Of a stretch of DNA of 64,000 nt, positions 5,120 through 41,560 are shown piece after piece. A program made the position numbers and the translations under genes. This stretch comes from an uncultured Monoglobus sp. Its GTDB lineage: Bacteria; Bacillota; Clostridia; Monoglobales; Monoglobaceae. A model generated the notes under the pieces. That model searched no databases. It was not told the DNA's origin and saw only the letters and a list, made by a program, of their open reading frames with translations. Location of the stretch: NCBI GenBank assembly GCA_947625055.1, contig CANQMT010000001.1, forward strand, positions 1-64,000. The letters run 5' to 3'. Numbering within the stretch: the stretch's first letter is position 1; each line of letters begins with the position of its first letter.

Positions 5120-5131
5120 GGAGGCGATGTA

Positions 5132-21900: not shown

Positions 21901-24900
21901 TATTCACCGATGCCGCTCCGCAGGACGGTGTGCTTTCGGATACGGTTAAGATCAATGATCAAAATGTCACCGTTTACGCGGTATGGGCGGCGGATATTAA
22001 CCATAACAAAACACCGGATTATAACGAGACGCCGCATACTCTGTCTTATGACGCTAACGGCGGCGAGGGAACACTGCCTGATCCTGTGAAGGTTCTGCCC
22101 GAGATCAAGATCAAGCTTGACGCCGAAAAGACATTCACTAAGACGGGCGCGGTATTTATCGGTTGGAGCCTTAACAGCTACTCTGAGCTTGTGACGAGCG
22201 CGGAGCAGGAAAACTCCCTCAGAATATACGAATATACTATGGGTAATGAGGACGTTACCGTTTACGCGCTGTATGCCGCTGATAATAACGGAGACGGAAC
22301 GCCGGATTACGGACGTTACACTTTGGAATATGACGCAAACGGAGCGGATGAGGGTTCTGCGCCTGACGACAATAACAAATACTCAACCGGAGCGGAAGTT
22401 ACGCTTAAAGAACCCGACGCTTCAATGAAAAAGACGGACGCGGTATTTATTGGCTGGAGCGAAAAAAAGAGTGAGGTTCAGAACGGTGACGGCAGCGCCA
22501 AGGTGTTTGACGCCGCCCCCGCGGAAGGCGTGATCACAAAAAGCGTTAAGATCGACGCGGATAACGTGACTGTTTACGCGGTATGGGCCGAGGACGGCAA
22601 CGGAAACGGCAAGCCGGATTATGACGAGAGCTACAGCGTGACGTACAACTCAAACGGCGCGCCCGACACCGTTAAGCTGCCCGAAAACAAAACGGGTCTT
22701 GACTATAACTCCGAGGTCACGATCGGCGATATTACCGTGGGCCTCTCGGATGACAACGACGGAAAGGGAAAATACTATACCGACGACAACTACGTTAAGC
22801 ATTATTTCCTCGGCTGGAGCGAGGATAAGCACGCCGAGACCGGAGACGACAAATACGCTCCGAATTCCTCGGTAAAACTCAACAGCGCCGATATTACGCT
22901 CTACGCGATCTGGAGCGCGGACAGATATAAGGTTCTCTACTACATAAACGGCGAGCTTGACACCGCCAAGGTTGATCCGGATTTCAGAGACAGGAGTTAC
23001 ACGTTCGGCGAGACAGCGGCATTGTGGATGCCCGTCAGCGAGGCGGAATATCCGCAGGGCGCTGATGCGACAGTCTTCGCGGGCTGGAGCGCGGATGAGA
23101 GCATGGAAAACACCGTCCTCAGCAAAATACCCGCCGCCGGAACGCTTGTTACAAGCGTCAGCATCCCGAACAGGGATGTTCCGGTTTACGCGGTATGGGC
23201 CGAGGACAAGAACAACGACAATATACCGGATTACGCCAATGATATGTACCTCGTGAAGTATCATTCAAACGGCGGTTTCCCGGATCCCGTTGATCACATA
23301 TTCTTCGCCGACTATACAAGATTTTATTTAAAAGATCAGACAGCAGATCTCATTGGTCTTGACGAGGGCGCGAGACGCGTCTCAAGAGAAAGAGCTGTTC
23401 TGGTCGGCTGGGGCAAGGATGCTCACGAAGAGCTTGTGAAATCGGATGAGGAGCTTAACGCTTTGATCACGGATAAAGACAGCCTTAAGTTCACAGATCA
23501 GAACATCACCGTTTACGCGCTGTGGGCCGCGGATAAGAACGGCAACGACATACCGGATTACAAAGAAAATCCGCGAACGCTGAAATATGACATAAACGGC
23601 GGAAGCGGCGAGACTCCCGCTTCCGTGAGCGACCTTTTGGTCGGCGACAGCGTTGAGCTTGAAAAGACTCCCGCCATAACGCTGACCGATGCGGTATTCA
23701 TAGGCTGGAGCAGACAGCAGAGCGTTGTCAGCGCGGAAGGAAAACCCGTGATCTTTAAATCAGCTCCGGATGAGGGCGTGATCACGGACAGCGTGACCGT
23801 CGCCGATGACGATGAAAACGAAATCACCGTTTACGCGGTATGGGCCGATGATATTAACCATAACGGTGTTCCCGATTATAACGAGACGCCGCGCACTCTG
23901 ACTTATGACGCAAACGAGGGAAGCGGAAAGGTGCCCGCTTCCGTGACGGTTCTGCCGGGAATTAACATTGATCTTGAGGATAACGTTGATCTCACCAAAG
24001 AGAACGCGGTATTTGTAGGTTGGAGCCTGACAAAATACTCAAAGCCTATCACGAGTCTTGAGGAGGAGAGCGCGCTCAGGATCGACGAGTACACAATGGG
24101 CGACCGGAACGTGACCGTTTATGCTCTTTACGCGGCCGATCTTGACGACAACGGCGAGGCCGACTACGGCAGATTTAAGGTTGAGTATAATAAGAACGGA
24201 GCCGAAATCGGAGAAGCGCCGATCGACAATAATTGGTACTCGACGGGAACGACGGTAACGCTTAAAACTCCCGACGCTGACATGACTTTGCAGGGCGCGA
24301 TGTTCATAGGCTGGAGCTCGAACAAAAACGCCGTGAGCACGAGCGGCGGCAAACCGGTGATATTTACCGCGGCTCCCGCGGACGGAATTGTTGAGACAGA
24401 AGTTATGATCGGCAGCGCGAATGTGACGGTTTACGCGGTATGGGCCGCGGACACCAACAACAACGGTACTCCTGATTATGACGAATTCTACACGGTCGAC
24501 TATGACACAAACGGCGCTCCGGACAGCGTTAAAACGCCGACCGCCCACACCGGGCTCGCGCACAACGGAATAATTCAAATAAAAGATATTTCAGAAGGAC
24601 TTTCGACAGACGACGAGGGAAGATACTATACCGACGGAAACGGGGTTAAAGTATACTTCGAGGGCTGGAGCACGGACATTCATGCCGAAAAAGCGAACGC
24701 TGATCTGGCGCCCGGAAAGTATCTCAGCTTAAACAGCGCGAATGTTACGCTGCATGCCGTATGGAGAGCCGACAGATTTAAGGTTCTGTATTACATCGGC
24801 GGCGCGCTTGATACCGAATATGTGAGCGATGACTTCCGCGGCAGAACATACGCTTACGGCGAGACGGCTGCTCTGTGGATGCCCGTCAGCGAGGCGCAGC

Positions 24901-27900
24901 TTCCCGCGGGCGCTGCGGGAACCGTATTCGCCGGCTGGACGGACAGCAAAGAAACCGCCGAAAAGGTGCTTACCGAGGTTCCCGCTGCGGGAACGCTGAT
25001 TACGAGCGTGAATATCCCGAACCGAGATGTTCCGGTCTACGCAGTATGGGCCGAGGATAAGGACGGAGACAAAATTCCGGACTACGCCGACAGCATGTAC
25101 CTTGTGAAATATCATTCAAACGGCGGCTTCCCCGATCCCGAGGATCACATTTTCTTCGCCGACTATACAAGATATTACATCACAGGCGCCGTAGCCGAGC
25201 TTATTGATGTTGAAACCGAAGGCAGACAGCGCGTTTCACTGGAAGGCGCAGTATTGGTCGGCTGGGGCAAGGAGGCACATAGTGCTTTTGTGACCTCTGA
25301 TGAGGAGCTTGTGGGACTGCTTGCGGACAATGAGTATCTCACGTTCGGCAGCGATAACATAACGGTTTACGCGCTGTGGGCCGCGGATGAGAATGGCAAT
25401 GACATACCGGATTATAAGGAAGAGATTTACACTCTGACATATGACGAAAACGGCGGTCAGGGTACGGTTCCCGAGCCCGTGACGGGCCTGCTTGACGGCG
25501 AAAGCGTTGAGCTTGAGCAAAAAGCGGAGCTTTCGATGGATAAGGCGGTGTTCATAGGCTGGAGCGAAAGCGAGGAGGATGTTCGCGGCGCGAACGGCGA
25601 TCCGATTGTGTTCGTTTCCGCTCCGCCCAAGGACGGCGTGATTGTTGACAGCGTTGTGATCAAGGCTTCGGATGCGGCGGTATACGCCGTATGGGCCGCC
25701 GACACGAACGACAACGGAACGCCCGACTATGAAGAGGCGGCTCACACGTTGAGCTATAATGCCAACGACGGCGAGGGAACGGTTCCCTCGGCGGTGCCCG
25801 ATCTGCTTCCCGGCACGGATGTCAAACTTGACATGGCGCCCGGTCTTGCCAATAGCGGCGGAGTATTTGTCGGCTGGAGCCTGACAAAATATTCAAGGCT
25901 TATGACAAGCGCTGAGGAAGAAGCCGCACTGAGAATTAAGAATGACACATACACAATGGGCTTTGATGACGTCACGGTATTCGCGCTTTACGCTGCGGAT
26001 TCAAACGGCGACAACGTGCCCGATTATGGCCGCTATTCGGTGACGTACGACAAAAACGGAGCCGAGGGAAGCGCACCCGTTGACACTAACAAATATTCAA
26101 CCGGAAGCGTTATAAGGCTTGTTCAGCCGGGCTCCGACATGAGGCTTGCAGACGCTGTGTTCATCGGCTGGAGCGAAAATAAGGCAGAGGTTCAAAATGA
26201 GAACGGCGGAGCGAAAATTTTTGACGCCGCGCCCGAAAGCGGTATAATCACCGACAGCGTGACGATAACCACAAATGATGTGACGGTATACGCGGCATGG
26301 GCGGCGGATAAGAACAACAACGGAACCCCCGATTATAATGAGGGTTATACTGTTTCATATAACGCGAACGGCGCGCCCAACAGCGTTAAGATGCCCGAAG
26401 CGCAGACCGGCCTCGCGTACAACGCATCAGTCAAGACGGGCGACATAACCGAAGGCCTTGAGTCCGATACAAACGGACGCTATTACACTGACGAGAGCGA
26501 AGTGAAGCATTACTTCCTCGGCTGGAGCGTGAACGCGGACGGCGGAGATATTATAGCGGTCGGCGGCGATGTTATGATAAACAGCGCGAACGTAACGCTT
26601 TACGCAGTATGGAGCGCCGATAGGTATCATGTTGTATATGACATGAACGGAGGAAGCGGAACGGTTCCCGACGAATACGCGGGCAGGACCTATGCCTTTG
26701 ACGAGAACGCTGCGCTCTATATCCCGCTTGCGGACGAAAGACCGACAAAGGACGATGTTGTGTTTGTCGGCTGGAGCGAGACGCCGATAGACGACGCGCT
26801 GACCGCGCCTCCGGATTACGGAACGATCGTCACAAGCGTTACGCTGCAAAACGGCGACAAGACGGTTTACGCGGTATGGGCCGAGGATAAGAACAGCGAC
26901 AAGGTTCCCGATTACGCTGACAATATGTATCTCGTGAAGTACCATATAAACGGCGGAACCTTCCCGAAGACAACAGACGGCATATTCTTTGAGGATTACA
27001 CCCGCTACAAACTCAGCGGTCAGACCGCGGAGCTAATCTCGATCGATGAGGGCAGACAGCGCGTTATGCGCGACGGAGCCGTTTTGGTCGGCTGGGGCAA
27101 GGAAGCTCACGAAGAGCTTGTGAAATCGGCTGCCGAGCTTACGGAACTCTCCGCCGACAGCGCATATCTAACGTTCGCGGACAGCGACATCACTGTATAC
27201 GCGCTGTGGGCCGCGGATGAGAATGGCAACGATATACCGGATTACGAGGAAAAGACTTACACTCTGACATATGACGGAAACGGCGGCGAGGGATCGGTTC
27301 CCGAGCCCGTGACCGGCCTGCTTGACGGCGACGTTGTCACTCTTGACGGAGCGGTTGCGCCGAGTATGCAGGGATGTGAGTTCCTCGGCTGGTGCGACGA
27401 CAAAAACGCCATCACCGATGAAAACGGTAGCCCGATGATCTTTACTGAAGTTCCCGACGGTGTTGTCAAGGAAAGCGTCACGATCGCGGGAGCGGATGTT
27501 ACAGTCTATGCGGTATGGAATAAAATTCCCATTGCGGAATACGGAGTCGTTTATAATGCCAACGGCGGAAACGACAGTGTTCCGATTGACGAAAAGACCT
27601 ATCCGATAGGCGGAGACGTTCAGCTTATGGACAGAGGCGAAATGACGAGAGAGGGCGCGGTATTCCTCGGCTGGTCGAAGAACGCTCACGAGCAGATAAT
27701 CATGACCCAGGATGAGCTTTCAGAGAGAATTTTGTCCGCGGGCGAGATCATTCCGCTTGATCTTGGAGACAACAGCTCGGTTATGACATTGTTCGCGGTA
27801 TGGGGAATTGACATAACCGACGGCACGCACACCGTGGTTGAGGACGGAACGGCCGATTATTATCAGGTGTTCTATAATTCAAACGCAGGACGCGAGGATG

Positions 27901-29849
27901 TTTCGGGCATGCCCGAGGCTGACACCAACAGCTATATTGACGGAACCGACGTTGACATCAAGCCGGGAGAGCCCGTAAGAGAGGGCTACAATTTCCTCGG
28001 CTGGAGCCTTAACGATCCTGACGGCGATCCGATAGGCGAAAGTGCGTTCAGGAAGTCGGCCGGCCCGGATGTGCTCTACGCGGTTTGGGAGGCGGTCGTT
28101 CCTCCTGACGAGTACGGCGTGATCTATCGCGAGAACCACGCGACTTACGGCGTTGTTCCGTTTGACGATAACAAGTACGTTATTGACGGCACTGACAATG
28201 TTCCCGTTCTCGGCAACGACGGCAAACCCGAGCTCGTCAAGGAAGGCGCGGCCTTCCTCGGCTGGAGCAAAAAGGCGAATAATGTGGTTGTCACGAGATT
28301 TGACGCTGAAAACGCGGAAATTTTGAAGGATCATACAAGGATCGACAGCCCGCCCGCGAGCGGATATATGAATTTGTACGCGGTATGGGCTAAGGATGAG
28401 AACGGCGACGGCGCAGCCGACTATGTTCAGGCGATATTCGATGACGGCGTTGACGACGGCGCGGCCGGAACCGTGACGGATATGCCCGACGCGATCACCG
28501 GAGAGCGCGGCGAGGTATACGAAATACCCGCCCGCGAGCCCGCCCGCGAAGGCTATGTTTTCGACGGCTGGACAGAGAGAGGAACCGACGGCCCCATTTA
28601 CAGATACGGCGGCACAAGCGGCAGCTTCACAATGCCCGATGACGGAATTGTGTTTGTGGCGCAGTGGTCGAAATATCAGCCTCAGCCATCTCCCTCGCCG
28701 ACAAGCGAGCCTACCGCGGAGCCGACGGATGCTCCTGCGACAAGCACACCGGAGCCCACGGCTTCGGAGTCCCCGTCGCCATCCCCGACTAAAAAGCCGG
28801 GTGGCAGCGGAGGCGGAGGCGGAGGCGGAGGTGGCGGCGGCTTCGGCACCGCTTCGGTCCGCGTTGTGAAAGAGTGGGATGATGACAATAACAGCCGTGG
28901 CGAGAGACCCTCGTCTGTAACAGTAAAACTCATGCAAAACGGCAACGCGGTTGACCAATGCTCACTTTCGGCCGAAAACAATTGGCAGCACACATTCTCA
29001 AATCTGAAAACCGGAACAGATTACACGGTTATCGAGGAAGCGGTCAACCATTACGCTCCAAAGTATGAGTCGATCTCCGGCGGTTACAAAGTTGTTAACA
29101 CCTATGATGAGAGTGTTGTGGTCGGTCCGCCGAACGGAGGCGGCGGTTCGGGCGGAAAGACTCCAGAGAATCAGCCAACCCTGAATTACGACGATCACTA
29201 CGCGTATATAGTAGGATATGATGACGGCACCGTTCAACCTGAGGGAACTATCACAAGAGCCGAGGTCGCGACAATATTCTTCAGGATGCTGTCCGAAAGC
29301 TCGCGCGAGAGATATATGACCAAGGGCAACAAGTTCAGCGACGTTTCGGTCGGCAACTGGTTCAACACAGCGGTCTCAACTATGGCGTCAGCCGATATAG
29401 TTCACGGCTATGAGGACGGAACATTCCGCGGCGACGCTCCGATAACCCGCGCCGAATTCGCGGTGATCGCGGCCAACTTTGACTCATCCGCCTATGACGG
29501 CCCCGATAAGTTCAGCGACATCGGCGGCCATTGGGCAAGCGAGTATATTAACAGAGCGGCTGAGCGCGGCTGGATCAACGGCTATGAGGACGGAACATTC
29601 AAGCCCGATCAAAGCATTACGAGAGCCGAGGCTATGGCTCTTGTCAACAGGGTACTTGAAAGAAAGCCCTCTGCGGATCATATGCTTGATGATATGATAG
29701 TATGGCCCGACAACAGCGACAAGACCAAGTGGTATTACTCTGATGTTCAGGAGGCCACCAACTCGCACTACAGTGAGCGCACGGACGATAACTATGAGAT
29801 TTGGACGTCTCTGCGTCCGGTTATGGATTGGGCGGAGCTTGAATCTTAA
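9939..29849 (+). CDS. Giant SLH-anchored modular surface protein/adhesin (6636 aa): signal peptide, SdrB-like domains, pilin isopeptide-type domains, many Listeria/Bacteroides-type repeats, Cna_B, 3 SLH
   Basis: RBS AAAGGAG; signal peptide MGKTRNGILITIIMTLVCAATLLCGTAAVHAEG; repeated FxGWS...VTVYAVWAxDxNxxxxPDY modules; C-terminal VRVVKEWDDDNNSRGERPSSVTVKLMQNG (Cna_B) and YIVGYDDGTVQPEGTITRAEVATIFFRML etc. (SLH x3). Confidence 0.93.
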   Translation: MGKTRNGILITIIMTLVCAATLLCGTAAVHAEGSRDIVRTSAENYKAVTGSDGTTGVNQARWSLMSQSGNFMGVNRQQKIKFYAFEGETVFLASNEVENSVDIKMTQPDGSVVNVDLKTDEGFIKTSANEKAGPKTKDDKSIWLPKAETTETGNIQYDTDINDRYVAYKYDIPISGVYVLEFYTNTSKATTLPARGGTEKGTVGNIKFNTELDGAHSNAHVIAWDVTVAQPQKSGDDITHYVAVNGRVWMDAIAMQNMGRVYGDLYCVTRDGYIWRFSLNGIEPNTFAMYANSRGGIGTGTNASAYHSVHSPLTNYTDFKLYKERVDKYGNPDGIQILGPDNDVTDIDSPYHMFVNPPDTTISESIVLSQPKPIGTVKNIQFDGKSNDLSDTVNTSSGYAGVGGSFEVETEGASSYRIIIDMSKMYAKHYHNEAVDGGKYDTDGSSTGNHDDEICLSTDSDLNFIYYNDDSAKGDGVGWYSIKTHESSRHPSNDKDLTQPEAMKNHVTYEKLTGGINLGEGITVTDDPSNSENAQILENAGYKSLGKIMLGNAAVDGTNRIKWDGRDQYGRILPIGTYFGSTGRGEVYAEPKAGEIHFPLGDVEQMINGVAIWLESEPQGWMSNVSTTQQQIDYRSRLYYNNLDMSLLRDFEYNDTVANNGMINNTWIWNLPNNTSNIRAGEVKANSSKINRGWVTDKTIFEDMSIDGTPSYKYDTSKAGDRAPTNLASKFTNDTSIGTSTDDSNNFGCDHGIVDVWTYAAAPESAKVYLDSNVTINNVDYQKILTGFVFLDTPVKGTVQGDYDKLTDDRELPGAKVVVSYGTYGNIKKKLPDDATYKDKSPDEPVTFETSTNSNGYYSVPINMYAFSDDAGDKQEITVTVTYSDPLAGPAAVTHKVTTIDKKVRQFTVSQEMEEGHANVSVQKIQLKKDGTGNKSESMKEIYADDVGYIISPSTSLRIHAQWTPDCLKDMSMAANFSVYGVYKSTIEKSENSKFKELLEKELPTHNDGYTYNDQYVPLAPKERDELKAFFQDTKNNVYSKEDIELDLKMSAVETIEDLPGIVFKTEKSGEKTQAVEADKIIYRVFYNGTAPSDSIDLKRNQYKAEGGGTFDNWEYTIKTDPSTIKETVWFDANHNSIFDEGEQPIVGARVQIAKRNSNISGDLNQPENYEKSFQRIKKNLPDDPDYDSTHPDDEWTLDKTVIDSSTTAFVTNEKGEVCNTSYTYNPDTNEITEEVNPMADNVGIQGLIAGTYRLTITLPPGSTYNSAAYTGAGMPDGPNNSSLIIAEFDQEHNQIIQYIDVPANAIDRTEETGKDGSVQAKAAYSYMADLSIRKSVEAYNTTNKSIERYVKPSLFAFKLKMSNITIEEPETSVTLPVEDAVTELSLSSPNVGVEGPGDPNKTITFKKQSDGSAAAVFTLSAGERITINNVPNGTEYEVTELDIKDALLDGIYDESIKDDNLKKLFDTKKNMRTGFGLSAALGNPKTRKGKISDTARTSMLNFTNRYEPLPVTAYGGKEPEKKRDEEINPSINHNSINIQARVLINTNEGEPVRNILESDNFSLVLEPSTWFTRDEDINNRDKHTPQDGLSPDVVEITDDGKKNTHNIIDVETPETPSNEATVTFDDKYTMTFTQPGVYTYVLRERKPFTTDNVDPIPGIKYAPETYKLYIEVNDDASDIVSANAGKTEAGTGHLVVANYFWRARTGFDEKGEGVDDWDLEWNTRILGSGTGGADNAFNKTPLEDGKSMLVFNNTYDLAPPEVAFEGTKILNGRALGDKEFEFKIEPVGKYEIGHTENKTPDAVASMPTPESDTTWNTAATGTNNIKFDPITFTEDDAGEDEASAIIYHYQISEIKPEDDSVKPSVEYDTKKQDVYVRVYKEVVADPDNEGQFYQIVHALQCDADGNSTSGFAFTNSYTAKNLELSLSGDNSLGLKLKKTLISKGDSSRKFKDGDEFRFVIEPENGAPAISGGAEGRPAGVLIFGPEGDAIGQTEKSDIEFASGDKIEFIEANTTDKPYYEYTIRELNPYGDASVTTLPGISYDGTRYRLRVYVKDDTAQGKLVLDTEKSESKTGIDVYKITDESEGELLNESTDENPAAMPELEFTNNYDPNKIDVPLSANKSFNRDFTTFFGTETGTDKMNQGFGFTLTPIGFVDDISSVGELTPFKAGVLKTDGEGYESEANMPMPDVGKQYTEGSKDFYIDSTGLIDLKNMSFESEDAGITKATAKVYIYKIKENNENRGGVTYDEKDRYIFLSVYMLTDDTMGDNQYVTVALNDTEDIAKIAEKHSEYKDANIDYTFVNTYNPNGSEFDLSNSDSLKIIKKVTTQNVDAPEFTEGQFQVKLEPFNSSNSQLPPGFINEDGYVTFNIDASGKFVFDKDNSYEVDSTKLNGTRLMFDSEGTYEYLIREVTPAEDGIDGEDGYTYDTYQYKLTLDVKDDLQGNMKITPSVQWRSSLGGSWSGEFDESLDDPHMPDGYKERDDKNISATDIVFVNSYTQRHTLNYNPNGALAGGDSLPPQTEYEKNMEITVHKTEGALTRNQGEMFVGWSTYEKDGGYTDEERTAALTAEDAEKAKALNILSADDDGTDENPGNTENNVFKMPDANAILYAVWAIDANGNNTPDYAEDGYSVEYYIGNAVVDPDSVYADKTNKILYTCEHHHVAGTDADFLSHNGNTVTVNGTEVKLSLPDSGNPAFIGWSLASSYKEAPVVDEYPGVFSRENLSGLISSINLTEELMKNTDLIKSREDGRKVLTVYAVWAGDTHGGQVLPPSEPTLGPDETPRPTADPDATPSPTATPGPETSDGIPDYKQVAYRGNKPTDADQEVVGVPVDGNEYIPGESYVSLLTAPSLDGYRFLGWTDVETPTDDTIYYQPGMHWGPKTNKLDLFYAQWAENEQSLIIQVFDDANNDGTYGGEETLLGISTEKITLTPKNSGDTIESVEHTDGGGVQFTSAMLKPGDYTLTITIDEDQFNVYDRYTGVNYALGDEQGTITTKLEGTKLTINQDITIPYEDYSGAIRYGVTRPYDVIYNMNGAPVEVGLKTDAVPDKDYAYHDGDTVPYYTDSEGREYDGKIAVLGADSLNETIDSSNGKYIFTDSAGLTHEFLGWSINSDASAPDTGMSVSELAEGGTYRNKSFKEMPAGDLTLYAVWDRGFNKYPLTFDANGGQYESGGEDALNGTLIDLNKRYVIVSEKDASIPLDENSENRPGYKNAEEKVTFPEISREDAVFIGWSATALGVVSDYNTVKDSLLSSIQMLTANTVYAVWAEDTRGKLVDSEGRSCDTPNVYYGDGHSDCAHGELIKHESDGIADYLQVFYEFNAPSDAKFSGSLNVDPVTYGVDGKYTLNKSVLETFKNTDADAIRQKDYENASAGEISDDNAAAYIRSSSLAVEGYAFDGWSVNDPSGANGKAENGMFYAGPTNGLGRAYSFEKSSGRPDTLYAIWRKIVPAAVNVRVYNDANRDGVCEPGEGLVTGFTIDSVYEVITQSYGGDLEEAFEKGFPLTDKGTDDARTGSAFINWFEPGKYKMTLTLDGTVSDNTSFVIRTLKDAHSFVSLDGTVEAKDMELQILNVNNRTITFQYSPKEGFAGDLNIAATQGYTLEYDTNGAPADKVAAPESVNNLYYDNETNVAEQPKKADGTELENDEDGYFYSDDNGVKHYFLGWSENKYSDTPEYSADGTSHKVTDRKITIKGETKLYAIWSADKYSVLYYFDGELDTDESNKVDKAYRDRTYNFDETAALWMPASREALPAKDKLVFAGWTENPETAKTALDKVPTAGTLITSVVMPSDNVSVYAVWAVDEDGNHVPDYADNMYIVSYAANGGFPAPEPDGIFFADYTKYYLNSQKAELITINEGKKRVSKENAVLVGWGKSDNGGALVSNAAELKTLEADEQYLTFSDKDITVYALWAADLNNNDKPDYSETEYTLTYDANGGEGTVPAAREHLLPGDSVELEKNPGLTMTDAMFIGWSSDKAAVQNDGGSAKIFTDAAPQDGVLSDTVKINDQNVTVYAVWAADINHNKTPDYNETPHTLSYDANGGEGTLPDPVKVLPEIKIKLDAEKTFTKTGAVFIGWSLNSYSELVTSAEQENSLRIYEYTMGNEDVTVYALYAADNNGDGTPDYGRYTLEYDANGADEGSAPDDNNKYSTGAEVTLKEPDASMKKTDAVFIGWSEKKSEVQNGDGSAKVFDAAPAEGVITKSVKIDADNVTVYAVWAEDGNGNGKPDYDESYSVTYNSNGAPDTVKLPENKTGLDYNSEVTIGDITVGLSDDNDGKGKYYTDDNYVKHYFLGWSEDKHAETGDDKYAPNSSVKLNSADITLYAIWSADRYKVLYYINGELDTAKVDPDFRDRSYTFGETAALWMPVSEAEYPQGADATVFAGWSADESMENTVLSKIPAAGTLVTSVSIPNRDVPVYAVWAEDKNNDNIPDYANDMYLVKYHSNGGFPDPVDHIFFADYTRFYLKDQTADLIGLDEGARRVSRERAVLVGWGKDAHEELVKSDEELNALITDKDSLKFTDQNITVYALWAADKNGNDIPDYKENPRTLKYDINGGSGETPASVSDLLVGDSVELEKTPAITLTDAVFIGWSRQQSVVSAEGKPVIFKSAPDEGVITDSVTVADDDENEITVYAVWADDINHNGVPDYNETPRTLTYDANEGSGKVPASVTVLPGINIDLEDNVDLTKENAVFVGWSLTKYSKPITSLEEESALRIDEYTMGDRNVTVYALYAADLDDNGEADYGRFKVEYNKNGAEIGEAPIDNNWYSTGTTVTLKTPDADMTLQGAMFIGWSSNKNAVSTSGGKPVIFTAAPADGIVETEVMIGSANVTVYAVWAADTNNNGTPDYDEFYTVDYDTNGAPDSVKTPTAHTGLAHNGIIQIKDISEGLSTDDEGRYYTDGNGVKVYFEGWSTDIHAEKANADLAPGKYLSLNSANVTLHAVWRADRFKVLYYIGGALDTEYVSDDFRGRTYAYGETAALWMPVSEAQLPAGAAGTVFAGWTDSKETAEKVLTEVPAAGTLITSVNIPNRDVPVYAVWAEDKDGDKIPDYADSMYLVKYHSNGGFPDPEDHIFFADYTRYYITGAVAELIDVETEGRQRVSLEGAVLVGWGKEAHSAFVTSDEELVGLLADNEYLTFGSDNITVYALWAADENGNDIPDYKEEIYTLTYDENGGQGTVPEPVTGLLDGESVELEQKAELSMDKAVFIGWSESEEDVRGANGDPIVFVSAPPKDGVIVDSVVIKASDAAVYAVWAADTNDNGTPDYEEAAHTLSYNANDGEGTVPSAVPDLLPGTDVKLDMAPGLANSGGVFVGWSLTKYSRLMTSAEEEAALRIKNDTYTMGFDDVTVFALYAADSNGDNVPDYGRYSVTYDKNGAEGSAPVDTNKYSTGSVIRLVQPGSDMRLADAVFIGWSENKAEVQNENGGAKIFDAAPESGIITDSVTITTNDVTVYAAWAADKNNNGTPDYNEGYTVSYNANGAPNSVKMPEAQTGLAYNASVKTGDITEGLESDTNGRYYTDESEVKHYFLGWSVNADGGDIIAVGGDVMINSANVTLYAVWSADRYHVVYDMNGGSGTVPDEYAGRTYAFDENAALYIPLADERPTKDDVVFVGWSETPIDDALTAPPDYGTIVTSVTLQNGDKTVYAVWAEDKNSDKVPDYADNMYLVKYHINGGTFPKTTDGIFFEDYTRYKLSGQTAELISIDEGRQRVMRDGAVLVGWGKEAHEELVKSAAELTELSADSAYLTFADSDITVYALWAADENGNDIPDYEEKTYTLTYDGNGGEGSVPEPVTGLLDGDVVTLDGAVAPSMQGCEFLGWCDDKNAITDENGSPMIFTEVPDGVVKESVTIAGADVTVYAVWNKIPIAEYGVVYNANGGNDSVPIDEKTYPIGGDVQLMDRGEMTREGAVFLGWSKNAHEQIIMTQDELSERILSAGEIIPLDLGDNSSVMTLFAVWGIDITDGTHTVVEDGTADYYQVFYNSNAGREDVSGMPEADTNSYIDGTDVDIKPGEPVREGYNFLGWSLNDPDGDPIGESAFRKSAGPDVLYAVWEAVVPPDEYGVIYRENHATYGVVPFDDNKYVIDGTDNVPVLGNDGKPELVKEGAAFLGWSKKANNVVVTRFDAENAEILKDHTRIDSPPASGYMNLYAVWAKDENGDGAADYVQAIFDDGVDDGAAGTVTDMPDAITGERGEVYEIPAREPAREGYVFDGWTERGTDGPIYRYGGTSGSFTMPDDGIVFVAQWSKYQPQPSPSPTSEPTAEPTDAPATSTPEPTASESPSPSPTKKPGGSGGGGGGGGGGGFGTASVRVVKEWDDDNNSRGERPSSVTVKLMQNGNAVDQCSLSAENNWQHTFSNLKTGTDYTVIEEAVNHYAPKYESISGGYKVVNTYDESVVVGPPNGGGGSGGKTPENQPTLNYDDHYAYIVGYDDGTVQPEGTITRAEVATIFFRMLSESSRERYMTKGNKFSDVSVGNWFNTAVSTMASADIVHGYEDGTFRGDAPITRAEFAVIAANFDSSAYDGPDKFSDIGGHWASEYINRAAERGWINGYEDGTFKPDQSITRAEAMALVNRVLERKPSADHMLDDMIVWPDNSDKTKWYYSDVQEATNSHYSERTDDNYEIWTSLRPVMDWAELES
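14530..17440 (+). other. Block of about five streptococcal-pilin-type isopeptide (FctA-like) domains within the giant ORF
   Basis: Recurring pattern FxFxLxP...F...GxYxYxIxExxP...G(I)xYDxxxYxLxVxVxDD...FxNxY. Confidence 0.65.
20760..27530 (+). repeat. Intragenic higher-order repeat (619-631 aa units of several List_Bact modules), four units, last one truncated
   Basis: NGAP anchor codons at 20760, 22653, 24510 and 26367 (spacings 1893, 1857, 1857 bp); second anchor MY[IL]V.YxxNGG near 21384, 23244, 25095 and 26925. Confidence 0.9.
28680..28845 (+). other. Pro/Thr/Ser-rich linker plus poly-glycine tract of the giant ORF
   Basis: QPQPSPSPTSEPTAEPTDAPATSTPEPTASESPSPSPTKKPGGSGGGGGGGGGGGFG. Confidence 0.9.
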
Positions 29850-29911
29850 AAAAATGAACTGCGGCGGCAAGACGGTTTTAACCCGTTTTGCCGCCGTAAG
29901 TTCTTATCGTC

Positions 29912-29946
29912 ACTCAGACTCTGAAGGCCGCAGATTCTTATCCCGC
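29912..29946 (+). pseudogene. Decayed 3'-half fragment of tRNA-Arg(CCG)
   Basis: 29/35 matches by eye to tRNA-Arg positions 9021-9055 (actcNgactctgaaggNcgcNgNttcNNatcccgc). Confidence 0.6.
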
Positions 29947-30243
29947 GAAACGCCAACGTAATGCGTTTCGCGGGAGCCCTAATATCAGTCTGTTTGCGAA
30001 AAAGTCATGCAATGCATGACTTTTTTTGTGAGTTCATTTTTTTGCTTTCCCCTGATCGAGTAAAATATGTTAATTTTTCGTTAATATTTATTATAAAAAC
30101 ACTTGTAATTTTATTTGTTTTATGTCATAATACTGACGATAAATATTATATCATCCCGAAAGTAAAATTTCACGGGGAAAAATTTTGTTCGGCGGTCAGG
30201 TAAATTATTTAATTAACATATATATTGAGTGAAGGTGATTATT

Positions 30244-32037
30244 ATGAGTAAAATACGCGGCGGAATTCTAATTATGCTAATTTTCGCTTTATGTGCCTCG
30301 ACGCTTTTGTGCGGCACAGCCGCGGTCCGCGCCGAAGGCCCGGGCGGCTCGGACAGATACAACGCTGTCTTTGAACAAAACGGCGGCGGAGACGGCAATG
30401 TTCAGGCAGTATTTGAAGACGGCGCAGATGACGGAGCTCCGGGGACCGTGACGGGAATGCCCGACCCTATCAACGGTCAGCGCGGCGAAGTATATGATAT
30501 ACCCGAGCGCGAGCCCGCTCGTGACGGTTACAAATTTGACGGCTGGATAGTGAAGGGAACCGACGGCCCTGTCTATAGACGCGGAGGCGAAAACGGCAGC
30601 TTTACGATGCCGGAAAGCGGGATCATATTTGTTGCGCAGTGGTCCGAAAATCATGATATGCCCGAACCAACTTCACAGCCGACTATAAATCCCGGCACGG
30701 AACCAACTACAGAGCCTACTTCGCAGCCTACTATAAATCCCGGCACGGTACCGACCGAGCAGCCGCAACACACAATTCCTCCCACGACGAGCGAGCCGCA
30801 GCAACCGACAAATCCGCCCGCGACAAGTGAGCCTCAGCAGCCGACAAATCCGCCCGCGACGAGCGCACCGCAGGAACCGACAAATCCGCCAACGACAAGC
30901 GAGCCGCAGCAGCCGACAAATCCACCCGCGACTGCCACACCGATTCCCGCTGAGACGACAACGCCCGAACCCGAAGTTTCTGCTTCTCCGTCACCCACCA
31001 AAAGACCCGGCGGTTCCGGCGGAGGCGGTTTCGGAGGGGGAACCTTCGGCACCGGCGGCACCACCTCGATCCGCGTTGTAAAAGAATGGGAAGATGATAA
31101 TGACAGCCGCGGCGAAAGACCGGAATCAATAACCGTGAAGCTTCTCCAAAACGGCACAGCGATCGATCAGTGCGTACTTTCCGCGGAAAATAATTGGCAG
31201 CACACGTTCTCAAGCCTGCGGAACGGCGCCGAGTATACGGTAGCGGAAGAAGAGGTGAAGCATTACACTCCGCAGTATGTCTCATCATTCGGCGGCTACA
31301 GAATTATTAACCGTTACGACGAGAGCGCCGCTGCCGATCAGATCAATGATCGGCATCCGGAAGCGCCGACGCTGAATTACGACGACCATTACGCCTACAT
31401 AGTCGGATACGAAGACGGCACGGTCCGACCGGAGGGAACTATCACGAGAGCCGAGGTCGCGACAATATTTTTCAGGATGCTGTCCGATAATTCGCGTGAC
31501 AGATATTATTCAAAGACAAACGACTTTGACGACGTCTCGGCGGGCGACTGGTTCAACACAGCGGTCTCGACTATGGCGTCCGCGGACATAATTCACGGAT
31601 ATGAGGACGGAACTTTCCGCGGCGACGATCCTATAACACGCGCCGAATTCGCGGTGATCGCGGCCAACTTTGACTCATCGGCTTATGACGGCCCCGATAA
31701 ATTCAGCGATGTCAGCGGACATTGGGCGAGCGAGTATATTAACAGAGCCGCGGAGCACGGCTGGATCAACGGATATGAGGACGGAACTTTCAGGCCGGAT
31801 CAAAATATAACAAGGGCCGAGGCAACGGCTCTTGTCAACAGAGTACTTAACAGAAAGCCGTCGGCCGGTCATATGCTCGATGATATGACAGTATGGCCCG
31901 ACAATAACAAAAACGAGTGGTATTACGCTGATATTCAAGAGGCTACCAACTCGCACTACAGCGAGCGGTCGAATGACGGATATGAAATATGGACGTCACT
32001 GCGCCCCGTTATAGATTGGAAGGCGCTTGAGACTTAA
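30244..32037 (+). CDS. Short SLH-anchored surface protein, paralogue of the giant ORF termini (signal peptide, one List_Bact-type module, PT-rich linker, Cna_B, 3 SLH)
   Basis: MSKIRGGILIMLIFALCASTLLCGTAAVRAEG signal peptide; near-identical module (VFEDGADDGAPGTVTGMPDPINGQRGEVYDIPEREPARDGYKFDGW), Cna_B and SLH to the end of 9939-29849. Confidence 0.92.
   Translation: MSKIRGGILIMLIFALCASTLLCGTAAVRAEGPGGSDRYNAVFEQNGGGDGNVQAVFEDGADDGAPGTVTGMPDPINGQRGEVYDIPEREPARDGYKFDGWIVKGTDGPVYRRGGENGSFTMPESGIIFVAQWSENHDMPEPTSQPTINPGTEPTTEPTSQPTINPGTVPTEQPQHTIPPTTSEPQQPTNPPATSEPQQPTNPPATSAPQEPTNPPTTSEPQQPTNPPATATPIPAETTTPEPEVSASPSPTKRPGGSGGGGFGGGTFGTGGTTSIRVVKEWEDDNDSRGERPESITVKLLQNGTAIDQCVLSAENNWQHTFSSLRNGAEYTVAEEEVKHYTPQYVSSFGGYRIINRYDESAAADQINDRHPEAPTLNYDDHYAYIVGYEDGTVRPEGTITRAEVATIFFRMLSDNSRDRYYSKTNDFDDVSAGDWFNTAVSTMASADIIHGYEDGTFRGDDPITRAEFAVIAANFDSSAYDGPDKFSDVSGHWASEYINRAAEHGWINGYEDGTFRPDQNITRAEATALVNRVLNRKPSAGHMLDDMTVWPDNNKNEWYYADIQEATNSHYSERSNDGYEIWTSLRPVIDWKALET
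30787..30930 (+). repeat. 36-bp tandem repeat x4 in coding sequence (TSEPQQPTNPPA units)
   Basis: Units start at 30787, 30823, 30859 and 30895. Confidence 0.9.
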
Positions 32038-32039
32038 AA

Positions 32040-32074
32040 TATCAAAGGCCGTCTCTCAAAGACGGCCTTTGATA
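32040..32074. terminator. Bidirectional terminator TATCAAAGGCCGTC...GACGGCCTTTGATA between convergent genes
   Basis: Perfect 14-bp inverted repeat. Confidence 0.8.
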
Positions 32075-32086
32075 TTATCTTTGATA

Positions 32087-33346
32087 TTATAATGAGTTCT
32101 TAGCCTCGGAGATCGAAATATCGTTTTTCTCCGCGATCTCGGCAAGGTCGTCATACTCGGTCTTGGTTTTTGTCACGCCGTAGCCGGTTGATGTCTTTTG
32201 GCGCACGGCGCCGTATTTTGTTTCGATCTGCTGTTCCTTGCGTGCCAGAACGTAGCGTTTGCAGGAGTATTCGCGTATTCCGATCGTTGATGTGTGCTTG
32301 AAGATCACTTTGAGCATTTTGTCACGGTCCTGTGCCCTGCACAGGCAGGAAAGCAGCGTTCCCGGGCGGCCTTTTTTCATTCCGATCGCCATAGTGAACG
32401 CGTCAAGCGCGCCCTCGGCAAGCAGCTTTTGCGACGCGAAGGCGATCTCCTCGGGTGTCATGTCGTCAAGGTTGCAGCACAGTTCAATTATACCGAGTTC
32501 GGCCCCGTCGGTCTCGCCCATTATCGCGCGGACACAGTTGGGCGCGCCGCTGAATTGTCTGCTGCCTATCCCGTATCCGATTTTTTCGATCTTTATCGGC
32601 GGCATCTGGATATATTCTTTAGCGAAGTGCTTTATAAGCGCTGCGCCCGTGGGAGTACACAGCTCGCCCTCGATCGAGCCGCTGTAGATCGGCACATTGT
32701 TTAAGATCAGAGCCGTGGCGGGCGCCGGAACCGGCAGAACGCCGTGGGCTGCCGTCACCGTACCGAAGCCCACGCATATCGGCGATGCTGTTATTAGATC
32801 GGGCTTTAAGTCGTTGATCAGCATACACACGCCCACGATGTCGGCTATCGCGTCACGCCTTCCGACCTCGTGAAAATGTATGTCAACAACGCTCTCGCCG
32901 TGGACCTCGCTCTCGGCTGCGGCTATGACCCGATAAACCGTTATCGCGTCGTTTTTGACGCTCTCGGGAATATTAAGACCTCTGATGATCTTGTCGATCT
33001 CCGCGAGGCTCCTGTGATGATGGTGGTGGCCGTAGTATGAGGAATGGTGCTCATGCGAGTGTTCGGACGAGCGCTCGCGGTGATGTTCATGGTGATGCTC
33101 GGACGAATGCTCATGATGATGGTGATGATGCGGGCCGCCCTCGGTCATTCCGTCGATATAAACCTTGGTATGTGTTCCGGATATGCCGGAGCTTTTTCTT
33201 TTTTCACATTTTAAGGTAACGCCGTCAAGACCCATGCTGTTCATTCGGCTCAAAAAGTCTTCGGGATTTGGATGAAGCTCGATCAGAGACGACATCAGCA
33301 TGTCTCCCGCGGCACCCATCGCGCAGTCAAAATGCAGTGTTTTCAT
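32087..33346 (-). CDS. larC: Nickel-pincer cofactor biosynthesis protein LarC, with an extended His-rich segment
   Basis: MKTLHFDCAMGAAGDMLMSSLIEL; HEVGRRDAIADIVGVCMLI; CNLDDMTPEEIAFASQKL; His-rich HHHHHHEHSSEHHHEHHRERSSEHSHEHH. Confidence 0.9.
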   Translation of the reverse strand: MKTLHFDCAMGAAGDMLMSSLIELHPNPEDFLSRMNSMGLDGVTLKCEKRKSSGISGTHTKVYIDGMTEGGPHHHHHHEHSSEHHHEHHRERSSEHSHEHHSSYYGHHHHHRSLAEIDKIIRGLNIPESVKNDAITVYRVIAAAESEVHGESVVDIHFHEVGRRDAIADIVGVCMLINDLKPDLITASPICVGFGTVTAAHGVLPVPAPATALILNNVPIYSGSIEGELCTPTGAALIKHFAKEYIQMPPIKIEKIGYGIGSRQFSGAPNCVRAIMGETDGAELGIIELCCNLDDMTPEEIAFASQKLLAEGALDAFTMAIGMKKGRPGTLLSCLCRAQDRDKMLKVIFKHTSTIGIREYSCKRYVLARKEQQIETKYGAVRQKTSTGYGVTKTKTEYDDLAEIAEKNDISISEAKNSL

Positions 33347-33374
33347 GTAGTTTCTCCTTTGAAGTATAATAAAT

Positions 33375-34337
33375 TTAGTTTTTATTTTTTGTATTAAGCG
33401 GATTTTTCGCAACGGCGCTCCGCAGCTCGTTGTTGTCAATGTGGGTGTAGATCTCGGTCGTGCTGAGCTGCTTGTGGCCGAGGATCTCCTGAAGCACGCG
33501 GATGTCAACGCCAGACTGGTGCATAAGCGTCGCGGCGGTGTGCCGAAGCTTGTGAGTGGTGTATTTGTGCGAGTCAAGGCCTAATTTTTTGACGTATTTT
33601 TCGACCGTGTATTGAACGGTCCTGCGGCTTATCCTTGCGCAGCGCTCGGACAGAAACAAGGCGTTTCTGTCTTTAAATTCGGGGCTCATTTTGCGTCTTA
33701 CGGGCAGATAAGCATCAAGCGCGTCAATGCAGGCTTGGTTTAAGTATATCGTACGTTCCTTGCCGCCCTTTCCCATGACCACAAGGCTGTCGCCGTGTAT
33801 GTCCGTCAGGTTTATGCTCACAAGCTCCGCGAGCCTCATGCCGCAGTTGAGGAATAACGTTAATATACAGTAGTCACGTTCGTAATTTCGCTTATCAACC
33901 GAGTCAAGTAAATGTAAGCTGTCTTCAAGCGTGAAATGCTTCGGGAGCTGTTTTTCGATTTTGATCGTGTCAAGATCGGCGGCGGGATTTTCATCGAGCA
34001 GCTTGACCTTGGTGTGCAGATATTTGAAGTACGACTTGAGGGCCGACAGCTTGCGCGCGCGGGTGCGCGGACTGTTGGCCAGATCGTGATTCAGGAAATT
34101 AGCGTATTCATATATTAAGTTTAAATCAACCGCGCGCAAATTGTCAATAGTAATATTGTCGATCTCGATCAAATTAAAATCGCGATCCGAAACTCCGGAC
34201 TGCAAATTCAGAAATCTGTAAAAGCAGCGCAGATCATAAAAATATTCAAGCGCGGTTTTGCGCGACTTTCCCTGAATACTTTCAAGATATATCAAAAACG
34301 ATCGCATCGGCTCGGGCGCGTATTTAATGCTTTCCAT
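33375..34337 (-). CDS. Tyrosine recombinase XerC/XerD-like
   Basis: Catalytic pattern: NCGMRLAELVSI, GKGGKERTIYL, HKLRHTAATLM, LGHKQLSTTEIYTH; RBS GAAGGAG. Confidence 0.9.
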   Translation of the reverse strand: MESIKYAPEPMRSFLIYLESIQGKSRKTALEYFYDLRCFYRFLNLQSGVSDRDFNLIEIDNITIDNLRAVDLNLIYEYANFLNHDLANSPRTRARKLSALKSYFKYLHTKVKLLDENPAADLDTIKIEKQLPKHFTLEDSLHLLDSVDKRNYERDYCILTLFLNCGMRLAELVSINLTDIHGDSLVVMGKGGKERTIYLNQACIDALDAYLPVRRKMSPEFKDRNALFLSERCARISRRTVQYTVEKYVKKLGLDSHKYTTHKLRHTAATLMHQSGVDIRVLQEILGHKQLSTTEIYTHIDNNELRSAVAKNPLNTKNKN

Positions 34338-34357
34338 ACCCGCATCTCCTTCTTCAA

Positions 34358-34387
34358 CATTGCACAAAATTTTTATTTTGTGCAATG
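34358..34387. promoter_or_regulatory. Perfect 13-bp inverted repeat CATTGCACAAAAT-tttt-ATTTTGTGCAATG just upstream of the recombinase RBS
   Basis: Read directly; arms 34358-34370 and 34375-34387. Confidence 0.85.
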
Positions 34388-34547
34388 ATATATATCTTAT
34401 TATATCTTCTTTCATGTTAAATTTCCAGAGCATTTATGTTAAAAATTTATTACAAATCAATTTTAGTGCCTTGATAATGTTGATATTCAAATTCTGTTAT
34501 TATATAATTATTTAAGCGTAAATTTTTTGATGAAAGGAGCTTCGGCG

Positions 34548-36734
34548 ATGATTAAGCTCAATGGGACCGTTGAGACGGTTATTTATTATAATTCCGAAAA
34601 CGGCTATGCCGTCTGCGACGTGTCGTCCTCCGGCGAGCTTATTACCGTGACCGGAACAATGCCGAATATTGCCGAGGGCGAGAACATCGTTGCCTCGGGC
34701 TCGTGGACTACCCACGCCGAGTACGGCGATCAGTTCAAGGCTGAATTTGTGGAGCGCGTTTTGCCATCCACCGAGGATGAGATCGAAAAATATCTCGCCT
34801 CGGGTATTATTCCGTATGTCGGCAAAACGACTGCGCGGCGGATCGTAAAGGCTTTCGGAGCCGAAGCTCTTGATGTGATCGAAAACGAACAAGAGCGTCT
34901 GTTTGAGATAAAAGGTTTGACGGGAGCCAAGGTCAGCGCGATCCACAAAGCTTTTTTGGAACAGATCGGCGTCAGAGAGATCGTGATTTTCTTTCAGCGA
35001 TTTAACATATCCCCCTCTTACGCTGTTAAGTCGTACAAAACTTTGGGCAGCGGCACTTTGGCGCTCGTTCAGACCAACCCTTATATTTTGGCTGAGCAAA
35101 TAGACGGCATAAGCTTTGAAAAATCGGACGAGATAGCCATGTCTTTGGGATTTTCCCATACATCTCGGATGAGGATCGCTTCCGGCGTCAAGGCTGCCAT
35201 GAAGCAGATATCTTTCTTTAACGGACACACATTCGCGCCGCGTCCGATGATAACCGCCCGCGCCTGCGCCATGCTTGACGTTGAACAAGGCCCGGTCGAG
35301 GACGCGGTCTCGGAGCTGCTGCTGAATGGCGAACTTATAAGCGAGGATCATGGCGACTATGAGGCGATATATCTTAAAATGTACTATGACGCCGAAAAGG
35401 CCGTGGCACAAAAGCTTATTGAAATGTCGGGCGTGATCTTTGATGTGGACTCTGCCTATATTGACAGACTGACGGACGCAGGCAGCGAGGGGCTCGAGCT
35501 TTCCGAGAGCCAGCGCGACGCGGTGAGCTGCGCGTTCCGCAACTCCGCTATGGTGATAACCGGCGGCCCGGGAACCGGAAAGACAACAATTATAAACACA
35601 ATAATCCGCGCAATGCAAAGCGACGACCAAAAGGTTATGCTTGCCGCCCCAACGGGCAGGGCGGCAAAGCGCATGACTGAGGTCTGCGGCTTTGAGTCAA
35701 AAACTATCCACCGCCTGCTTGAGATCGTGCCCGGCGCAGACGAGGTCGGAAACAGCTTTGCGCGTAATGCCGACAACCCGCTTGAATGTGACGTGCTTAT
35801 TATCGATGAGATGTCGATGGTCGATATAATGCTTATGAGCAGCCTGCTCGACGCTGTTCCGCGCGGTTCAAGGCTGATCATGGTAGGCGACAGCGACCAG
35901 CTTCCTTCAGTCGGTCCCGGCAATGTTCTTAAAGATATAATAGACAGCGGCACGATCGAGTGCATAAAGCTGACCGAAATATTCAGGCAGGCCGAAGAAA
36001 GCATGATCGTGGTCAACGCTCACAGGGTCAACCACGGTATGGAGCCGCACCTTAATGACAACGACGGCGACTTCTTCTTCATACACCGCAACGATCCGGA
36101 ACAGCTTCCAAACACGATCGCCGATCTTTGCCTTAGGCGGCTGCCCGAGTATTACGGCTTTGACAGTATGTCTCAGATCCAGGTCCTGACCCCGACAAGA
36201 AAGTCGTCTATCGGCGTAACGAGTCTTAACACAATACTTCAAAGATGTCTCAATCCGCCAAAACCCGACAAGGCCGAACACTTTACACGCCGCTGCGTGT
36301 TCCGCGAGGGCGACAAGGTGATGCAGACAAAAAACAACTATCAGCTCGAATGGCGCAGAGACGGTGAAAAAGGCCGCGGGATATTTAACGGCGATTGCGG
36401 ATTTGTCACAAAAATTGATGAAAAACGCGGTAAACTCGAGGTTTTGTACGATGACAGATATGTGGATTACGACTTTTTGCAGCTCGACGAGATCGAGCTT
36501 GCCTATGCCGTCACCGTGCACAAAAGCCAGGGCAGCGAGTTCGACGCGGTTGTCATTCCAATGTTCCCGGCGCACCGTCTGCTTATGACAAGGAACTTGC
36601 TTTACACAGCTATCACGAGGGCAAAGTCTCTGGTGGTGCTTGTGGGGCTTGAGGAAGTGATGAATTTTTATGTTAAAAACGATAATGTTCAAAGCAGATT
36701 TTCAGGACTTAAAGATAAGCTAAGGATATATTGA
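34548..36734 (+). CDS. recD2: ATP-dependent RecD2-like DNA helicase
   Basis: ITGGPGTGKTTIINTIIRA (Walker A), DVLIIDEMSMVD (Walker B), YAVTVHKSQGSEFDAVV; N-terminal helix-hairpin-helix region. Confidence 0.92.
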   Translation: MIKLNGTVETVIYYNSENGYAVCDVSSSGELITVTGTMPNIAEGENIVASGSWTTHAEYGDQFKAEFVERVLPSTEDEIEKYLASGIIPYVGKTTARRIVKAFGAEALDVIENEQERLFEIKGLTGAKVSAIHKAFLEQIGVREIVIFFQRFNISPSYAVKSYKTLGSGTLALVQTNPYILAEQIDGISFEKSDEIAMSLGFSHTSRMRIASGVKAAMKQISFFNGHTFAPRPMITARACAMLDVEQGPVEDAVSELLLNGELISEDHGDYEAIYLKMYYDAEKAVAQKLIEMSGVIFDVDSAYIDRLTDAGSEGLELSESQRDAVSCAFRNSAMVITGGPGTGKTTIINTIIRAMQSDDQKVMLAAPTGRAAKRMTEVCGFESKTIHRLLEIVPGADEVGNSFARNADNPLECDVLIIDEMSMVDIMLMSSLLDAVPRGSRLIMVGDSDQLPSVGPGNVLKDIIDSGTIECIKLTEIFRQAEESMIVVNAHRVNHGMEPHLNDNDGDFFFIHRNDPEQLPNTIADLCLRRLPEYYGFDSMSQIQVLTPTRKSSIGVTSLNTILQRCLNPPKPDKAEHFTRRCVFREGDKVMQTKNNYQLEWRRDGEKGRGIFNGDCGFVTKIDEKRGKLEVLYDDRYVDYDFLQLDEIELAYAVTVHKSQGSEFDAVVIPMFPAHRLLMTRNLLYTAITRAKSLVVLVGLEEVMNFYVKNDNVQSRFSGLKDKLRIY

Positions 36735-36758
36735 TTATTTTGAAAGGAGAAATGAAAT

Positions 36759-37358
36759 ATGGAACAATATGCCGCCCCGCTCAGAGATTTGATCGAGGAA
36801 TTTAACAAGCTGCCGGGAATCGGCATAAAGACCGCGCAGCGGCTGGCGTTTCACGTTATAAATCTGCCGGCGGAAAAATCCGAGAAGCTCGCAAACGCAA
36901 TATTAAGCGCCAAGCGTGAGATAAGATACTGCAAGGTATGCCAGAACCTCTCGGCGTCCGAATTGTGCAATATCTGCGCCGCTCCCAACCGAGACCACAG
37001 CGTCATCTGCGTTATGGAAAGCCCGAGGGACGTTATGCAGATGGAAAGAACCAATGAATTTAAAGGCGTTTACCACGTGCTGCACGGCGCGATCTCGCCT
37101 ATGGACAACATTTCACCCGACGATATTAAGATCAAAGAGCTTCTGGCCCGCGTCTCGGAAGGCGGCATCACAGAAGTAATAATGGCGACCAATCCCAACC
37201 TTGAGGGCGAGGCGACGGCAATGTATATTTCAAAGCTTTTAAAGCCGTTCGGCGTTAAAATAACAAAGATCGCCCACGGTGTGCCTGTGGGCGGAGAGCT
37301 TGAGTTCGCCGATGAGATAACCCTCGGCAGAGCTTTAAATTCAAGAACGGAGATGTGA
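36759..37358 (+). CDS. recR: Recombination mediator protein RecR
   Basis: [17 protein letters not shown]; Cys motif [56 protein letters not shown]. Confidence 0.95.
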
Positions 37359-37361
37359 TTT

Positions 37362-37862
37362 ATGAGCAAATTAATTAAGACTGCGGAAACCGACGAAGAT
37401 ATAAGAACTATCGAAAAATGCGCGGAAATAACCTGGCACGATGCGTATGATCCTCTGCTTCCGGACGGGCAGGTGGAATATATGCTCGGAAAGTACCAGA
37501 GCTTTGACGTTATCAAAAACGACATTAAAAATAACGGCTACACCTATTATTTGTATTTTCTGGACGGTGAGGCCGCGGGCTTTTGCGGCGTCAAGCGCGA
37601 GGCGGACAGGCTCTTTGTAAGCAAGATCTACGTCCTGCCAAAGTTTCAGCGGCGCGGGATAGCTTCCGAGCTGTTTGGGCGCGTAAAACAGGATTTCGGC
37701 GGCGAATACGGTGAATTTTATCTGACGGTCAACAAGCATAACGAAAAGGCGATTGCGGCTTACACAAAGTTCGGATTTGAAACATCCTCCACCGCTGTCA
37801 CCGACATCGGGCACGGATATGTTATGGATGATTACATAATGACCTATAAAATAAAGCGATGA
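37362..37862 (+). CDS. GNAT family N-acetyltransferase
   Basis: LFVSKIYVLPKFQRRGIASELF acetyl-CoA motif; YTKFGFETSSTAV. Confidence 0.85.
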   Translation: MSKLIKTAETDEDIRTIEKCAEITWHDAYDPLLPDGQVEYMLGKYQSFDVIKNDIKNNGYTYYLYFLDGEAAGFCGVKREADRLFVSKIYVLPKFQRRGIASELFGRVKQDFGGEYGEFYLTVNKHNEKAIAAYTKFGFETSSTAVTDIGHGYVMDDYIMTYKIKR

Positions 37863-38521
37863 GTGGGAATGTGACAAAGATTGTTTTTATGCCTTTGACC
37901 TCCGAGATAAACGAGACCGCATTTAAACGTCTGCTTGAGCTTGTACCGTGCGAAAGCAGGGCGAAGATCTGCGGCTTTAAGCATGATTTTGACAAAAAAG
38001 CAAAGCTGTTTTCCGAGGTTTTGGCTCGGAGCGAGATCGCGAAAGCGCTGAATGTTCCGAATACGGCGATCGAGTTTAACATTGACGAATACGGCAAACC
38101 CCATATTCGCGGCTGTGAAACGCTTCATTTTAACATATCCCACACCAAGCATGCTGTTGTATTGGCGCTGTCATCAGCGCCCGTGGGAATTGATATCGAA
38201 AGGATAGTCGAAGCCGATCGCCGAACAGCAAAGAAAAATTACAGCGATGATGAGCTGGATTACGTCAATTTTGGCTGTCAGGACGCTGACAGACGTTTTT
38301 TTGAGATATGGACCCGCAAGGAGGCGTATCTGAAATATATCGGCACAGGAATACGCGGTCCTTTATATTCGTTTTCAACAATGGGCGACGAGCGGATACG
38401 CACGATCGAAAAAGACGGATACATTATTTCGGTCTGCGCCGCAAAAAACATCGCTTCAGCGGAGATTTCAACGATACGCGAAAGCGATCTTGAGAATATT
38501 GAATTATCGGTTTTTAAATAA
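37859..38521 (+). CDS. 4'-phosphopantetheinyl transferase (Sfp-type)
   Basis: FNISHTKHAVVLALSSAPVGIDIERI and FFEIWTRKEAYLKYIGTGI. Confidence 0.9.
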   Translation: MSGNVTKIVFMPLTSEINETAFKRLLELVPCESRAKICGFKHDFDKKAKLFSEVLARSEIAKALNVPNTAIEFNIDEYGKPHIRGCETLHFNISHTKHAVVLALSSAPVGIDIERIVEADRRTAKKNYSDDELDYVNFGCQDADRRFFEIWTRKEAYLKYIGTGIRGPLYSFSTMGDERIRTIEKDGYIISVCAAKNIASAEISTIRESDLENIELSVFK

Positions 38522-39271: not shown

Positions 39272-39290
39272 ATACTGCTCCTTTCCGTTT

Positions 39291-41528: not shown

Positions 41529-41560
41529 TTAAAAATACAAAAGATAAACAGGAGAGAGAA

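Follow-up and report, generated by a model that had tools for sequence, protein, structure and literature searches.

Integration of an element into a tRNA gene duplicates the 3' half of the gene, leaving the intact tRNA at one end of the element and a 3'-half fragment with element-end DNA at the other. It is well documented that elements target the anticodon-loop region and that 3' tRNA fragments occur as attR (PMC8371274, PMC9897764), tRNA gene fragments being treated in PMC9897764. For genomic islands that integrate at tRNA genes and displace tRNA fragments, PMC8371274 cites Williams 2002, and the Islander database of such islands is described in PMC6917214. In the literature on Monoglobus S-layers, nothing specific was found. 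Here we describe a locus at which a putative decayed attR is located between two paralogous surface-protein genes.

The window analysed, 64,000 nucleotides in length, is part of a 172-kb contig from a 2.2 Mb draft genome. The closest named relatives of this source genome are MAGs labelled Monoglobus sp., and the isolate prefix 'Lapin' points to a rabbit-gut origin. Comparisons covered 12 genomes of the genus and, for a wider pattern search, 38 genomes of the family; all genomes compared except one were multi-contig drafts. The locus follows purine-synthesis genes, an AICARFT-type gene among them, and begins with an intact tRNA-Arg(CCG) (8990-9066; ARAGORN, Rfam), the attB, or integration target, in the genus. 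A promoter block, P1, with a CCCTCCCGA/TCGGGGGG leader hairpin (9490-9652) precedes a giant surface-protein gene (9939-29849; 6636 aa) that contains FctA-type domains, InlB-type repeats, CnaB and SLH. The second surface-protein gene, gene 2 (30244-32037), encodes an SLH protein of 597 aa from its ATG, with InlB-type and CnaB parts, a GTG start at 30229 also being possible; its promoter block and leader hairpin occupy 30062-30215. Downstream of gene 2 are a nickel-insertion (LarC-type) gene, an XerC/D-like recombinase gene and RecD2. The tRNA, both surface-protein genes and the features described between them are all on the forward strand. Very large SLH reading frames, the longest exceeding 10,000 aa, recur in the genus (for example G000 C3, G004 C7 and G009 C2).

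Positions 29912-29946, which cover the tRNA-Arg 3' half from immediately 5' of the anticodon as far as the T-arm, are identical to 9021-9055 of the intact gene at 29 of 35 nt in direct orientation, exactly as the initial annotation had stated; 200 shuffled queries reached at most 25/35, and the next best site on the 172-kb contig was 21/35. In a free search, the match to the attR sites of two relatives, G004 and G007, extended over 49 nt (84% identity, E ~1e-7), compared with 35 nt for the tRNA. Homology with these true att sites begins at 29898, 14 nt upstream of the tRNA match, in a stretch that had previously been missed. Directly outside the tRNA part, 29898-29911 agrees with the attR flanks of G004 and G007 at 12 of 14 nt, the 14 nt being the entire length of the element-end match. 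Over a flank of 14-15 nt, 12 nt were shared with these element ends versus 2/15 with the tRNA, and a flank match as good as 12/15 is expected at 3.8e-5 of positions by chance. The exact motif CACTCNGACTCTGAAGGNC was found at four places in the 12 genus genomes, namely the attR of G004, G007 and G011 and position 29911 of the window, and all intact tRNA-Arg genes read GACTC where the attR form has CACTCNGACTCTGAAGGNC. Since the fragment matches the attR sites of relatives better than it matches the tRNA, including element-end DNA outside the tRNA, we identify 29898-29946, at the level of sequence, as a decayed attR and not a decayed whole tRNA, with its core at 29912-29946 and a remnant of the right end of an integrative element at 29898-29911. 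The fragment is most likely functionally inert, and the predicted promoter downstream of it is probably the part working today.

A family of tRNA-like repeats scattered over the genome, raised earlier as a finding that would speak against this type of origin, was not observed. The source genome contains a single att-form copy and no further copy of the fragment, and a slightly longer CACTCNGACTCTGAAGGNC pattern gave no additional sites in the 38 family genomes, leaving four in all. One intact tRNA-Arg of this type was present in each of 11 of the 12 genus genomes by an anticodon-arm pattern search, with no match to the pattern in G003, a 90%-complete draft; an intact second tRNA-Arg was sought in relatives and found in none. 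Derivation of the fragment from tRNA-Ser(CGA), which precedes gene 2 in other species, was rejected on reading the sequences.

Integrative elements occupy tRNA-Arg in several relatives. The element of G011 is 6.6 kb in length and is flanked by tRNA-Arg, next to which it encodes a tyrosine integrase, and by a 46-nt copy of the tRNA 3' half. In G004, a remnant of 2.3 kb, its integrase truncated, separates tRNA-Arg from a 46-nt copy, and hairpins, promoter and the giant gene follow this attR; an intact integrase adjoins tRNA-Arg in G007, the attR end being on another contig. Integrase homologs were found only in these three genomes, each beside tRNA-Arg. The source genome contained no homolog of that integrase at E<=1e-30, and no integrase-bearing element lies between its tRNA-Arg and the fragment, so that the locus is regarded as a scar and not as a complete island. 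The tyrosine recombinase at 33375-34433 was considered as the integrase of the element and rejected, as it is XerC/D-like and conserved next to larC or recD2 across most of the genus, with or without the fragment.

Both units carry hairpin repeats. The array after the intact tRNA (9066-9250) starts from the tRNA 3' end and contains I1 (9066-9101/9105-9140), I3 (9143-9155/9165-9177) and a third hairpin at ~9196-9224. The same hairpin types after the fragment, as noted initially, were recovered at 29941-29953/29963-29975 and 29999-30011/30013-30025, within second-unit repeats spanning 29941-30060, and a terminator-like hairpin of the giant gene (29862-29896; inverted repeat I1) abuts the element-end remnant. 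Related arrays follow tRNA-Arg or attR in G004, G006, G007, G008 and G009, with a shorter hairpin in G010; compared with known RNA families, none of the hairpins scored near a curated threshold. In the fragment, the T-arm TCCCGC also forms the initial half of hairpin TCCCGCGAAACGC; it is followed without a gap by GAAACGC, the left arm of the hairpin that reads TCCCACGAAACGC after the intact tRNA. The tRNA 3' end would be missing because of a fusion at this short TCCCRC repeat, shared by T-arm and hairpin: a deletion between two TCCCRC copies would have removed the tRNA end together with the first hairpin. A dispersed element of ~75 nt (9255-9329) was also observed inside the hairpin array, with many copies across the genus (90-99% identical) and at several loci of the source genome, often nested in other hairpin repeats at a CCCC..GGGG-like site; it looks like a small non-autonomous mobile repeat. 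The CCCTGATC junction at 30050-30057, read by eye against 9143-9270, is possibly a stub of this element.

The promoter block shared with the giant gene, the third similarity pointed out in the initial annotation, was also borne out: 9490-9652 and 30062-30210 are 75-78% identical, with homology running into both gene starts (78-81%). The block of gene 2 is 78% identical to each of the giant promoters of the source genome, G004 and G009, which are 91-94% identical to each other and 64-67% to that of the G008 giant gene. The first 105 coding nt of gene 2 are 79-81% identical to the starts of the giant genes, following the same pattern as the promoters. Both proteins end in CnaB and SLH, and a tree built from the 380 C-terminal residues placed the giant and gene 2 proteins of the clade in one group (86/86), separate from the single surface gene of other species (99/97), the two gene 2 proteins being grouped weakly (71/59). 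The two units are thus homologous in order and orientation, with paralogy in the gene tree. Judged from these alignments and the tree, the 5' cassette (hairpins, promoter, leader hairpin and signal peptide) and the CnaB/SLH end of gene 2 are paralogs of those of the giant gene. Both ends of gene 2, the promoter with the first 105 nt and the C-terminal part, separated from their giant-gene counterparts before the divergence of the three closest species. Between leader and start codon, the giant gene carries an insert of ~230 bp (9660-9890). G004 and G009 share it, whereas gene 2 and G008 lack it, a distribution consistent with its later acquisition by the giant copy; the insert contains a second TTGACT/TATAAT promoter-like site and a palindrome, GTTCATGGGTGAAC.

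We consider it probable that 29898-29946 is the decayed attR of a tyrosine-recombinase element and that a tandem duplication occurred while tRNA-Arg was occupied, followed by element loss and decay. Beyond the attR identity, the element in relatives and the paralogy of promoters and genes with its relative age, we reconstruct the order of events, the breakpoints and the excision as follows. A small tyrosine-recombinase integrative element would target tRNA-Arg(CCG) in the genus, and the ancestor of the source species and its two closest relatives would have had the order tRNA-Arg, element, attR, hairpins, promoter and giant SLH gene, as G004 has now. The part of this locus from a left breakpoint within the final ~15 bp of the element to a right breakpoint immediately after the giant gene would have been duplicated in tandem, giving a second unit of attR', hairpins', promoter' and SLH gene'. 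The element may then have left the first unit, restoring the tRNA-hairpin junction, and the second copy would have decayed, losing the tRNA 3' end by the TCCCRC-repeat fusion, its gene turning into, or getting joined to, the short gene 2. An alternative route to the identical product would be an exchange between two sister chromosomes, one occupied and the other empty. The intermediate, an occupied tRNA-Arg with two attR units, was found in none of the genomes compared.

The neighborhood of gene 2 has been rearranged. The region 30447-42783 (gene 2, larC, xer and recD2) matches 57028-68791 of G004 contig 1, where the gene 2 block and the giant gene are tens of kb apart and have the opposite relative orientation; rearrangement is also seen beyond 42783, and larC in G009 has a different neighbor, without gene 2. 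The promoter and signal peptide of gene 2 in G004 differ from those in the source genome, so either G004 was altered at an inversion breakpoint or gene 2 of the source genome is a chimera. Under the latter alternative, which we regard as unlikely, ectopic recombination or inversion joined the attR-hairpin-promoter-signal-peptide cassette of a giant copy to an older gene 2 body, the fragment still being an attR scar and gene 2 never having been a full-length tandem duplicate. Such an origin would agree with the differing gene order around gene 2 in the source genome, G004 and G009, and with the 82% identity of the gene 2 body to that of G004, the first 105 nt being 79-81% identical to the giants and 63% to G004 gene 2. 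However, the cassette is equidistant from all three giants, which makes it older than the lineage, and the C-terminal part is also a clade-specific giant paralog, so that one duplication explains both. An ancestor with adjacent giant gene and gene 2 and a later inversion in G004 is one order that needs few steps, as reasoned by hand.

Plain tandem duplication of a unit that included an intact tRNA-Arg, the second tRNA then decaying, was the simplest reading in the initial annotation and appears improbable. Its duplication part stands, as the two units have paralogous hairpins, promoter, signal peptide and C-terminus. The whole tRNA does not: the tRNA homology breaks off precisely at the att boundary, which adjoins the anticodon, the DNA in place of the 5' half fits an element end, and the identical truncated form is the attR in three other genomes. 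Equally doubtful is an origin in which the giant gene was brought by an element, with tRNA-Arg and the fragment as attL and attR of a 20.9-kb island, although the direct orientation, the 20.9 kb spacing and the element-end bases at the right end are consistent with it. Orthologs of the giant gene adjoin tRNA-Arg in both G004 and G009; in G004 the attR precedes the giant gene, which in G009 follows an unoccupied tRNA-Arg with no attR. On the left side, the window has the native tRNA-hairpin junction instead of an element arm, and the match between the giant promoter and the post-attR promoter would be left unexplained. The integration scar proposed earlier as an alternative is thus retained for the fragment, but not as a simple island boundary.

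A parallel was observed at tRNA-Ser(CGA), which the larC-linked surface gene follows in G003, G008 and G010 and which directly adjoins larC in G007. In G006, only a tRNA-Ser 3' fragment (L128:2841-2899) is present ahead of the gene 2 ortholog, a position occupied by the complete tRNA-Ser in other species, and an intact tRNA-Ser is located near the end of another contig. This fragment, behind an apparent type I restriction-modification cluster (judged from translations), is an independent att-type scar at another tRNA. The tRNA-Arg and tRNA-Ser cases indicate that surface genes downstream of tRNA landing sites repeatedly gain att fragments. Surface-protein genes of the genus tend to sit just downstream of landing-site tRNA genes, so that elements repeatedly insert between tRNA and surface gene. 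Elsewhere, G004 L126 contains a partial tRNA-Asn copy with a changed T-arm (~5290-5370) shortly after an intact tRNA-Asn (5094-5168), possibly another integration scar, and a small gene pair before tRNA-Asn in the window (46150-46776) resembles, by eye, a Phd-type antitoxin and a PIN-type toxin. If the tRNA-Arg/att pair were a present or former mobilisable cassette, allowing elements to excise or swap the 20-kb giant gene as a whole, tRNA att sites would act in the genus as places at which surface genes are shuffled, tRNA-Arg in the window and tRNA-Ser in G006, a reading that we hold to be highly improbable.

Returning to duplication during occupancy of tRNA-Arg, the fragment probably dates the presence of an element in tRNA-Arg to a time before the divergence of the three closest species, and the giant surface gene would have been duplicated in the period of that occupancy. 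The finding is explained by known processes, the mechanism being textbook and the event of an ordinary type. As in the attR of tRNA islands, the window has a tRNA 3' half that begins beside the anticodon and is oriented like the intact gene, with element-end DNA outside the tRNA and integrase-bearing elements in relatives. In contrast to such sites, the source genome has lost the element and its integrase, the core is decayed (6/35) with the tRNA 3' end lost, and the fragment lies downstream of a 20-kb host gene, not at the far end of an element. The genes themselves resemble tandem S-layer/SLH gene duplications, being adjacent and on the same strand with paralogous promoter, signal peptide and CnaB-SLH C-terminus, but differ from the usual ones in the lengths of the copies (6636 and 597 aa) and in the att fragment with which the duplicated unit starts.
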